From: Alloalcanivorax dieselolei B5
Lineage (GTDB): Bacteria > Pseudomonadota > Gammaproteobacteria > Pseudomonadales > Alcanivoracaceae
NCBI RefSeq assembly: GCF_000300005.1
Contig: NC_018691.1
Span: forward strand, 1,488,001 to 1,552,000
DNA length: 64,000 nucleotides
Direction: 5' to 3'
Shown here: piece after piece, positions 35,424 through 39,807 of the stretch
Numbering within the stretch: position 1 is the stretch's first letter
Layout of the letters: each line of letters starts with the position of its first letter
The notes under the pieces: generated by a model
The model's database searches: none
The model's input: only the letters and a program-made list of their open reading frames with translations
What the model was told of the DNA's origin: nothing
Translations under genes and position numbers: made by a program

Positions 35424-37013
35424 CTAACGGGCTGGAAAAGCGGTCCAGCGATCCAGCCAGGTGGCACTGGCCCCGGGCCGCACCGCGCCAAGGTAGTTGG
35501 CCGCTTCGTCCCAGAATTCGCCTTGAGGTACCGGCACCGCGCCGCGCGTTGCCGGTGACCGCAGGGCCGGCGTGACATTGGGATGATAAGGGTTGATCGC
35601 ATCCTGATTGAAGCGCGGGTCTTCATCGAAACGGACGCTGCTCAATCCTCGGAAAAAGGTGTCTTCGTCGAAGCCGCCGTCGTCGTCCGCGTCGCCTTGC
35701 TCCGCTTCGAAATAACTCAGGCCGCGCGGGCCGATGCCATGCATCAGCACACCCTGGAAATCCAGCGCGCCGGTATCCAGATTCGCCACCGTGGCACCAT
35801 CGCGCAGATCGATGGCTTCGCCGGAAAAACCGCTGATCAACAGATTGTGGAAATGACCCCCGGTACCTTCGCGCAGGGTCATGGCGCGATGATGGCGGGT
35901 GCTGCTGCGCGGCGACACCAGCGTGACGTTGTACATTATCGGCTCGGACCGGGGCAGTGCCTGGTGATGGGCGCCGTTGTTGTCCGCTTCGAAGGCGTTG
36001 TCGCCGGTATCCTCGTGTTGTTGTACCACCAGGAACTGCACTCTGCCGCGCCAGCCCAGATCCCAATCAAGCCCGTCGTCGCCGGCACCGGTAATAACGA
36101 TGTGGCGCAGATCGACGTTGCCGCCAAACACTTCCACGCCATCGTCCAGGGACCGGTGCACCTGCAGATGACGGACAATGGTGCCGCTGCCGCAACCGCC
36201 CAGGGTGAGCCCGTTCAGCTCATTGTTGGCATAAACCTCGAAGCCGGCGAACTCGATCCGGGCGTATTCCAGTACGCCGCAACTGCCTTGCGGGTTCTGT
36301 CCGCCGTAGGCGCCGAGCGGATCGCCGGCATCAATGCCTTCGATCTGGGCATCGGGTTCGTTGACTGGAGCGGCCCCCAGCAATACCAGCCCGCCCCAAT
36401 CGCCGGCGGCTCTTTTCCCTTCAGGCTGGCTGCTGGTGAAAACGATGGGGGCATCCTCGCGGCCGGCGGCGTGGAGACGGGCTCCGCGGGTGATGACCAG
36501 CGCCGAATCGACGCGGCCGAGGATGCGAGCGCCCGGCTCAATGGTCAGGCGCACGCCGGGCAGTACGTACACCACGTCCCCCAGTACCCAATCGCGGTCG
36601 GCGGTCCAGGTCTGGTCCTGCTCGATCACCCCGGTCACTACCCGGTCGCCTTGCAGGTAGGGCAGAGCCAGCCACCAGAACAGCAGCAAGCACAGCGACA
36701 CGGTGCCAATGACCAGGGGCCATACCAGCCACCGGTAAGCGAAACGGGAAGGACCCGTGGCGGTCGCTTGAGGACGGGTGTTATTGGCCGCGTCGGCGTG
36801 GTCAAGGCGCGCCAGTTCCTCACCCAGATGACGGATATGATTGTGAGGGCTGTGGCGGGCCCGTTCGATAATTTCCGCTCGGTAGCGGGCGTCGTTCAGC
36901 AAGGTGTTGAAATGAATGAAACCAAGACCTGTATCCCCGGCACGGTCGTAGTTCTGCTTTAACTGCCAAAGCAATTCCACCAGACGCGCGCGAGCCGGCG
37001 TGCCGTCGCCCAT
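35424..37013 (-). CDS. Inner-membrane-anchored parallel beta-helix protein
   Basis: A 529-residue protein of unknown function. About 93 cytoplasmic residues (helical, with LVELLWQLKQNYDRAG) precede one membrane segment (about 94-119, VWPLVIGTVSLCLLLFWWLA). The remaining 400 residues would be periplasmic and look like a right-handed parallel beta-helix, with repeats such as VLEYARIEFAGFEVYANNE, LNGLTLGGCGSGTIVRHLQV and DDGVEVFGGNVDLRHIVITG. The fold resembles large extracellular proteins in which RIEFAG-type repeats occur, but those are normally lipidated or secreted. The ATG at 37013 (MGDGTPARAR) is favoured over an upstream ATG that gives a poor N-terminus. No catalytic residues are recognised. 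Confidence 0.7.
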   Translation of the reverse strand: MGDGTPARARLVELLWQLKQNYDRAGDTGLGFIHFNTLLNDARYRAEIIERARHSPHNHIRHLGEELARLDHADAANNTRPQATATGPSRFAYRWLVWPLVIGTVSLCLLLFWWLALPYLQGDRVVTGVIEQDQTWTADRDWVLGDVVYVLPGVRLTIEPGARILGRVDSALVITRGARLHAAGREDAPIVFTSSQPEGKRAAGDWGGLVLLGAAPVNEPDAQIEGIDAGDPLGAYGGQNPQGSCGVLEYARIEFAGFEVYANNELNGLTLGGCGSGTIVRHLQVHRSLDDGVEVFGGNVDLRHIVITGAGDDGLDWDLGWRGRVQFLVVQQHEDTGDNAFEADNNGAHHQALPRSEPIMYNVTLVSPRSSTRHHRAMTLREGTGGHFHNLLISGFSGEAIDLRDGATVANLDTGALDFQGVLMHGIGPRGLSYFEAEQGDADDDGGFDEDTFFRGLSSVRFDEDPRFNQDAINPYHPNVTPALRSPATRGAVPVPQGEFWDEAANYLGAVRPGASATWLDRWTAFPAR

Positions 37014-37105
37014 GGTAGTCCCCCCCCAGATGTTTTTGTTTAACAACCCAAAGGTGCCAGTGTGGAAGTAAAAAATGACAGTCGTGCTAAGGGGGGGGAG
37101 GTCTC

Positions 37106-38982: not shown

Positions 38983-39011
38983 TTGCCGGGGCGCGGAACG
39001 CTGTTTATGAT
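38983..39011 (+). promoter_or_regulatory. Candidate promoter of the structured RNA / HNH leader
   Basis: TTGCCG and TATGAT are separated by 17 bases (four and five consensus matches). Transcription would start near 39018, just before the hairpin series. Confidence 0.5.
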
Positions 39012-39017
39012 CAATAC

Positions 39018-39159
39018 AACTTTTTTTACGCGGCTTGCCGCGAGGCACTGCTTTCTGCTTAGCCGGTTTGGGTCGGTTAAGCAGAGACCAGGGTAAAGGA
39101 AGTTCGTCGCAAAGATCCCCTTTACGGGGGCGGGCCCATATTCCCGCCGACGCTTTTTT
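39018..39159 (+). ncRNA. Candidate structured small RNA or leader/riboswitch upstream of HNH gene
   Basis: About 142 bases between a sigma-70-like promoter and a T6 run. It contains in order: a CGCGGC/GCCGCG hairpin (39029-39042); an 11-bp stem with one G-U pair (TCTGCTTAGCC with its partner, 39054-39085); a GTAAAGG/CCTTTAC stem (39093-39125); and a GGCGGG/CCCGCC stem (39129-39148) followed five bases later by TTTTTT. CGTCG in the loop of the third stem can instead pair with CGACG just before the T-run, which is incompatible with the third stem. I do not recognise an Rfam family. Either a free sRNA or a cis-acting leader is possible. Confidence 0.45.
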
Positions 39160-39246
39160 CCATTCCCTGTCGCAGAATCGTCACGATAACAGGCTTTCAT
39201 GGTCCCGCCACAGCGGGAGAAGTTCGTCGAGCAGGCGAGGGTGCCT

Positions 39247-39807
39247 ATGAGTGAGCGCATTCTGCGATTGGACAAGGCCGGCACGCCGGTGGAATGGCTG
39301 GATTGGCAGGCCGCGGCCACCTTGTACGCGCGGGGTCTGGTGACCTGGACTCTGGGCGATGTGATTTATCGCCTGCGCGGCGGATTCTGCCGTGTCACTG
39401 GCGACCGCTCCCGTTTGTCCCTGCATTCCATTATTGCTTGCGATGGACTGGCCAGCCCGCGCCGCCGCACCCGTCCGCCGTTGACCAATCGCGCGCTGTT
39501 TCGCCGTGATCAGCATGTTTGTCTTTACTGCGGCAAGCCGTTCCCCGAATCGCAACTGACCCGTGATCATATTCGCCCCACTTCCCGTGGTGGTCGCGAC
39601 CACTGGCTCAATGTGGTGGCCGCCTGCCGCCGCTGCAATCAGCACAAGGGCAATCGCCTGCCCGAGGAAATCGGCATGGAGTTGCTGGCACTGCCTTATG
39701 TGCCGAACATGGCCGAGTATCTGGCGTTGATTAACAGCCATCGTATCCGTGGTGACCAGATGGCGTTTCTGCGCAATCAGTTCGGCAAGAACAGCCGGTT
39801 GTTGTAG
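39247..39807 (+). CDS. HNH endonuclease-domain protein
   Basis: A 186-residue protein with a C-terminal HNH domain: the zinc-binding CLYCGKPFPE near residue 97, TRDHIRPTSRGG with the catalytic His near 110, and the second Cys pair in CRRCNQHKGN. This compact HNH type is widespread and usually of unknown biological role; no restriction, toxin or phage genes lie next to it. The ATG at 39247 (MSERILRLDKAG) follows GAGGG; an ATG 48 bases upstream is in frame. The gene lies 88 bases after the T-run of a structured RNA candidate, which could control it. Confidence 0.85.
   Translation: MSERILRLDKAGTPVEWLDWQAAATLYARGLVTWTLGDVIYRLRGGFCRVTGDRSRLSLHSIIACDGLASPRRRTRPPLTNRALFRRDQHVCLYCGKPFPESQLTRDHIRPTSRGGRDHWLNVVAACRRCNQHKGNRLPEEIGMELLALPYVPNMAEYLALINSHRIRGDQMAFLRNQFGKNSRLL

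Follow-up and report, generated by a model that had tools for sequence, protein, structure and literature searches.

In the leaders of the Escherichia coli ompA and papA mRNAs, a structured 5' end is reported to slow 5'-end-dependent decay. The locus described here shares with these stabilising stem-loops a predicted position at or near the 5' end of a leader, far from the ribosome-binding site, while the letters of its helix are conserved beyond the apparent need of end protection. A 5' hairpin is described as able to stabilise an mRNA in PMC3997798, which also reports autoregulation of the nuclease genes rne, pnp and rnc, encoding RNase E, PNPase and RNase III. Like the present locus, these autoregulatory leaders are structured, precede a nuclease gene and are strictly linked to it in cis; they differ in that rne, rnc and pnp encode ribonucleases, whereas the gene here encodes an HNH protein, behind a leader without an Rfam match at threshold. 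A further comparison is offered by HEARO, which we take to be the omega RNA of IscB. Here, too, an RNA lies upstream of an HNH-domain gene whose HNH domain is similar to those of IscB and Cas9, but Rfam gave no match and the protein matches the IscB and Cas9 models over its HNH part only, with scores far below the cut-offs (43.6 bits against 175 and 56.5 against 375).

Rfam searches at gathering score returned nothing in the whole window or in ten related loci, and with the limit relaxed to E 10 no more than two families matched the region, Cupriavidus-1 (E 2.2) and RefA5 (E 3.3), each scoring far short of its gathering threshold. This agrees with an earlier sequence-only reading that had proposed a possible new structured RNA. 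The resemblance which that reading had seen between CGCAAAG and the c-di-GMP-I riboswitch (GEMM) is a likeness of a short letter string only, without a match at gathering score, and found no support in Rfam. Riboswitch, HEARO and tRNA-like readings were dropped.

Layout of the locus and its promoter

The window is the whole stretch of 64,000 nucleotides of Alloalcanivorax dieselolei B5 that was analysed (NC_018691.1, positions 1,488,001 to 1,552,000), taken from a genome of a single contig of 4,928,223 bases. Below, g1 denotes Alloalcanivorax, the window's genus, g8 a genus taken to be Alcanivorax and g5 a sister genus; genomes carry G handles (G000 is the window's genome), and HNH leaders or loci carry L handles. 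The feature coordinates are collected in Table 1. The start of a GMC oxidoreductase gene (38816) and the HNH ATG (39247) are separated by 430 bp, and the ATG follows 88 nt after the T6 run at 39154-39159. RNAfold of 39016-39165 gave four hairpins (about 39030 to 39148) at -60.3 kcal/mol, with z = -3.0 against dinucleotide shuffles and none of 200 shuffles equally stable. The sequence-only reading had placed the -35/-10 pair with its 17-nt spacing, the hairpins, the T-run and the HNH gene correctly at every position. Taken alone, the terminator-like matches at the locus (3 found, 1.6 expected) and the promoter match (1 found, 0.7 expected) are about what chance would give; the region is rated above chance because two genera, g1 and g8, have kept the promoter and one hairpin. 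Elsewhere in the window, a 540-aa ORF on the - strand (35424-37046) was without a Pfam or NCBIfam match at E 0.001.

Table 1. Coordinates of the features in and around the HNH leader, counted from the first letter of the window
Feature	Coordinates	Strand	Basis
Promoter: -35 TTGCCG 38983-38988, 17-nt spacer, -10 TATGAT 39006-39011, within CTGTTTATGAT	38983..39011	+	sequence; conserved across two genera
Predicted transcription start	39017..39019	+	inferred from distance to -10
Predicted 5' clamp: AACTTTTTTTAC (39018-39029) with GTAAAGGAAGTT (39093-39104)	39018..39104	+	MFE fold
Conserved stem-loop	39048..39091	+	36-nt gap-free core 39052-39087, covariation
Stem three: GTAAAGG (39093-39099) with CCTTTAC (39119-39125)	39093..39125	+	found in the window; not kept in G008
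Terminator-like hairpin and T6 run	39129..39159	+	terminator scan
Block 2 TGTCGCAGAATCGTCA	39168..39183	+	conserved 16 nt, complementary to HNH start region
Small hairpin TCCCGC-CACA-GCGGGA preceding the ribosome-binding site	39203..39218	+	RNAalifold consensus, 12 g1 leaders
Likely Shine-Dalgarno GCGAGGG	39235..39241	+	sequence; inference
HNH nuclease gene, 186 aa	39247..39807	+	Pfam HNH_5/HNH; start region conserved

The -10 pattern was present in all 29 g1 and g8 leaders, in 12 of the 14 HNH leaders taken from the family's other genera and in none of seven loci of other families. It has the form TG(T/G)(T/A)TAT(T/G)AT, and outside the two genera it sits 38 to 372 nt 5' of the mapped start (12/14). 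In two of the three g5 genomes it begins 41 nt ahead of the HNH ATG (L082, L085), and in the third 111 nt ahead. Because the pattern also precedes HNH in genera without a found hairpin, and at 41 nt in two g5 genomes, we read the promoter as that of HNH itself, which would place the hairpin in the HNH leader.

Within g1, the distance from the -10 to the hairpin varies from 21 to 62 nt, so the hairpin is not at the extreme 5' end in every species. In some g8 leaders (L065, L072) only 0-1 nt separate the helix from the predicted start and in others more, all of these starts being predictions. The 5' clamp is local to the window's clade, with 12, 12, 9 and 8 of its 12 pairs kept in G000, G006, G007 and G008, respectively, and in the window species it would, according to the fold, draw the 5' end of the transcript into structure.

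The conserved stem-loop and its linkage to the HNH gene

The core alignment of the stem-loop is gap-free in 29 leaders and comprises 24 distinct sequences and 16 pairs. Across these cores 95.3% of cells are paired, 7 of the 16 pairs are changed on both sides yet still paired (39 cells), and 6 are invariant. The loop consists of four bases, YNNG, closed by U.G or C-G, and in the alignment of the window's genus outer CTG/CAG pairs are added to the core. The covariation score was 0.331 against a shuffled mean of 0.171; none of 500 shuffles reached it and versions slid along the alignment came to 0.101 at most, with the shuffle statistic inflated by related sequences. The number of pairs changed on both sides (7 versus 5.0 in shuffles, reached by 34 of 500) and the number of pair types (reached by 159 of 500) were less extreme. 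Column pair 4-33 occurs as CG, GC, AU and UA, and pair 7-30 as AU, GC and CG; on the HNH gene tree each of the two underwent five pair-state changes, spread over several branches. Despite the relatedness of the sequences, so many Watson-Crick types, four at 4-33 and three at 7-30, would be hard to get otherwise. Contrary cells are G.G at pair 4-33 in 7 of 24 cores and an unpaired 12-25 in 8 of 24.

Since the fixed G.U and the other U.G pairs favour the + strand, the RNA is read on that strand: G.U is invariant at pair 11-26 (24/24 cores) and found at pair 2-35 in 11/24. Pairing amounted to 95.3% of cells on + and 78.9% on -, and the covariance model R2 gave the window, one of its training sequences, 53.2 bits on + and 20.6 on -. 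Judged by these alignments, the stem-loop is under strong structural selection. An absence of covariation in relatives had been named in the sequence-only reading as one result that would speak against a structured RNA; for the main stem, covariation is instead strong.

In a BLAST search of 57 genomes with the region, the 12 that matched were all from the window's genus; five of them align over 42-46 bases only, corresponding to one hairpin, and three over the HNH-adjacent 3' end only. Two covariance models of the hairpin were used, R1 from 12 g1 sequences and R2 from 24 sequences. At E 1, R1 matched 29 of 46 family genomes, namely 13/13 of g1 and 16/17 of g8, and in all 29 the best match shared the strand of the HNH gene and preceded the HNH match by 137-495 nt. 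The g8 genome missed by R1 (G034) also has the hairpin upstream of its HNH gene, with 51 bits under R2, in whose training set it is included. All 30 genomes of the two genera thus carry the hairpin upstream of HNH. In G063 it is followed by an HNH fragment at the end of a contig, and in G057 two hairpins each lie ahead of one HNH copy. Apart from these, R1 found five weak further places at E 0.03-0.77 (G002, G004, G011, G033, G063) and opposite-strand echoes of the same hairpins.

Among 390 genomes drawn from the order, R2 gave 13 matches at E 0.01, all in g1 or g8 and with a single place in each genome matched; among 274 drawn from the class, the window's genome was the sole match at E 0.01. 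Both scans used stricter filters, which lose weak matches. A pattern scan of genome_contigs returned 24 stretches titled Alcanivorax, Alloalcanivorax or uncultured Alcanivoracaceae/Pseudomonadales, and that of viral_contigs returned 0. With the filters switched off, R2 found no convincing hairpin at the HNH loci examined from other genera of the family (14) or from other families (7). One match of that run, L090 at E 0.005, was rejected as a short palindrome. The hairpin is dispensable for the HNH gene, because HNH, mostly with the promoter, occurs in other genera of the family without a convincing hairpin. At three loci of such genera (L071, L084, L086), inverted repeats of different sequence were seen by eye after the HNH promoter, possibly independent 5' hairpins; their folding z-scores are weak (-2.0, -1.4 and -0.2). 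The gene upstream is not constant, being a GMC oxidoreductase gene in the window and a DUF3047 gene in L065.

Searches recovered the HNH gene from 45 of 46 genomes in the family and from 61 of the 94 relatives covered, and 31 proteins of the order have a mean column identity of 79%. The HNH domain of the protein resembles those of a Geobacter HNH nickase, IscB and Cas9. The predicted structure reached a mean pLDDT of 71 (medium confidence) and had no PDB match at E 0.001 or better, the best ones being HNH domains. PADLOC matches (PtuB, Cas9, restriction enzymes and others) were weak and lay mainly in the HNH half. No described function for the protein family was found in the literature search, within the accessible portions of the sources. 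By eye, the N-terminus of the HNH protein shows an apparent duplicated RILRLD-like segment in L055, L056 and L057 (G004, G003 and G002).

The downstream leader: terminator-like site, alternative pairings and block 2

A hairpin with a T-tract at the window's place was found in 7 of 13 g1 leaders, four in the window's clade and three in a second clade. The terminator scan gave no site in G001, G002, G003, G011 and G012, and in G004 only a site elsewhere in the leader. Some site was present in 12 of 16 g8 leaders, differently placed, and 10 of these reach merely -6 to -10 kcal/mol. Premature termination may occur in the window's clade and is not a common theme of the element. The sequence-only reading had proposed an RNA with its own promoter and terminator, of which the promoter proved to be conserved and the T-run terminator did not.

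That reading had also proposed two mutually exclusive folds. Both pairings exist in the window: CGTCG and CGACG form 5 of 5 pairs, conflict with stem three and close the terminator domain in the minimum-energy fold. In the window's genome (G000) and its three nearest relatives, G006, G007 and G008, stem three keeps 7, 7, 6 and 4 of its 7 pairs and CGTCG/CGACG keeps 5, 5, 5 and 2 of 5. Changes on both sides were found in neither, four close sequences being a small test, and no counterpart of either was seen by eye in the rest of the g1 and g8 alignment. The two folds thus stood as pairings and not as a conserved two-state switch.

Block 2 recurs in g1 and g8 with up to 6 of its 16 bases changed. 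Its distance to the mapped start is 64-125 nt, apart from two leaders in which insertions add to the length. Nine of its bases in a row are complementary to 39259-39267, and when 39016-39300 is folded, the minimum-energy structure joins 15 of the 16 bases (39169-39183) to 39252-39268. Against shuffles of the block, the duplex z over 24 distinct sequences was -3 or lower in 7 (e.g., L047, L058, L059 and L066), -1.7 to -2.5 in 6, -1.4 to 0 in 5 and above 0 in 6 (L055, L056, L057, L063, L073 and L088), with L064 near 0. Among 12 leaders folded, the expected number of pairs between block 2 and the coding sequence was at least 8 in nine and 7.9 in one, and only 2.0 in L069 and 2.6 in L065. In total 78.7% of cells are paired, and one pair is altered on both sides (2 cells, one lineage). 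The leader site best complementary to the HNH start overlaps block 2 in 16 of 25 leaders. Because the pairing energy is unexceptional against whole-leader shuffles (z -2.3 to +1.5), the pairing is kept as a tentative lead only. The complementarity tentatively suggests translational control, and an action of block 2 on translation is possible though doubtful.

In two g8 leaders (L064 and L067, of G061 and G062), insertions of about 260 bases with inverted ends, MITE-like by eye, lie between block 2 and the HNH ATG; they spare the promoter, the hairpin and block 2. The small hairpin before the ribosome-binding site has 1 of 5 pairs altered on both sides in 12 g1 leaders under RNAalifold.

Explanations of the element and its meaning

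The stem-loop is very probably a cis leader element of the HNH mRNA, and the full explanation, in which the region forms a 5' leader of about 230 nt on this mRNA, is held with better than even confidence. The element probably acts in cis on this mRNA. In the mechanism considered most likely, the 5'-proximal stem-loop would set the lifetime and output of the HNH transcript, its structured 5' end slowing 5'-end-dependent decay. Such protection fits because the stem-loop lies near the 5' end and in some species at the predicted very end; as the main role of a cis leader we give it somewhat less than an even chance. Conserved letters within the helix suggest that a protein may also read the hairpin, which could serve as a docking or cutting site, e.g., for RNase III or the HNH protein. 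Block 2, about 80 nt ahead of the start codon, would pair with the first HNH codons and damp translation. In the window's clade, the leader terminator might add premature termination, with an RNA of about 140 nt as by-product.

A small RNA acting in trans, about 140 nt long with its end at the T-run and independent of the neighbouring HNH gene, would account for the promoter, structure and T6 terminator of the window's clade and for the hairpin with T-tract in the second g1 clade (L050-L052), and 549 small-RNA candidates are reported in A. dieselolei B-5 (PMC9788540). Its own terminator is not conserved, however, as only 7 of 13 g1 leaders have one at the window's place. The element is also inseparable from HNH in 30/30 genomes although the upstream gene differs, and in 2/3 g5 genomes the promoter by itself serves HNH. 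Because the hairpin lies between a conserved promoter and HNH in all 30 genomes and the -10 pattern is near HNH in g5, a 5'-leader element is the most likely explanation, and an independent small RNA is unlikely. Of the two options in the sequence-only reading, the leader controlling HNH is the one that is supported, the element always lying in the HNH leader in both genera, and the separate small RNA is not borne out. Being an inverted repeat close to the promoter whose half-sites contain invariant letters, the element could also work as DNA, a palindrome bound by a transcription factor just 3' of the promoter. The G.U pairs in one orientation (at 11-26 and 2-35) and all four Watson-Crick pairs at 4-33 are expected of an RNA and not of a protein site, and the position relative to the -10 varies by 41 nt, which leaves this reading highly improbable. 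A switch between two mutually exclusive folds, of the ligand or attenuation type, for which both pairings and the terminator-like site after them are present in the window, is less probable still: stem three and CGTCG/CGACG decay in G008 without a change on both sides, among four close sequences, and the Rfam results contain no riboswitch family.

Autoregulation through an HNH protein that binds the hairpin of its own leader or cleaves it, on the model of RNase E, PNPase and RNase III (PMC3997798), is in line with the strict linkage of hairpin and gene, with the 6 of 16 invariant pairs inside a covarying helix, which fit recognition by a protein, and with an HNH domain similar to those of a Geobacter HNH nickase, IscB and Cas9. 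RNA binding by the HNH protein is hypothetical, though, its structure model is without a PDB match at E 0.001 or better, and homologues at 75-80% identity lack the hairpin; we regard the idea as improbable. A more specific form, in which a stand-alone HNH nuclease, akin to IscB and Cas9 in its catalytic domain, is a natural RNA-binding protein that recognises a dedicated hairpin on its own mRNA as a cis RNA operator and the leader is closed onto the start codon via block 2, is a long shot. A translated upstream reading frame coupled to HNH was also considered, since the start ATGAGTGA overlaps the stops of two frames. Frames of at least 57 codons with a start codon, ending on the HNH start, occur in 10 of 13 g8 leaders tested, and shuffle P < 0.05 each was reached in 7/13 g8 leaders and in 3/9 of g1 (window clade). 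The other 6/13 g8 and 6/9 g1 leaders gave nothing significant (two g1 leaders were unscorable, with the start mapped downstream), and related leaders are not independent. Two of three frames, moreover, stop at ATGAGTGA regardless, and block 2 is, by eye, read in differing frames across species. Coupled translation is a weak reading and very unlikely.

The hairpin leader family appears to be new; as a kind of thing, it is an ordinary structured mRNA leader. No description of the element was found in the accessible literature searched. The 549 candidates mentioned above come from dRNA-seq of Alcanivorax (now Alloalcanivorax) dieselolei B-5 (PMC9788540), which places an antisense RNA, sRNA4307718, beside the tmRNA. 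In the window's genome the tmRNA lies at 4,307,334-4,307,691, and strain and coordinates of the catalogue thus appear to be the same as here. The accessible part of its main text makes no mention of HNH, 1527, 1526 or sRNA15, and the leader transcript may already be listed in its tables.

If the HNH protein reads its own hairpin, this would be relevant to how RNA became a partner of HNH nucleases. The stem-loop adds a well-supported structured leader element to a pair of marine genera important in oil degradation, and it offers a way into a well-conserved family of HNH proteins.
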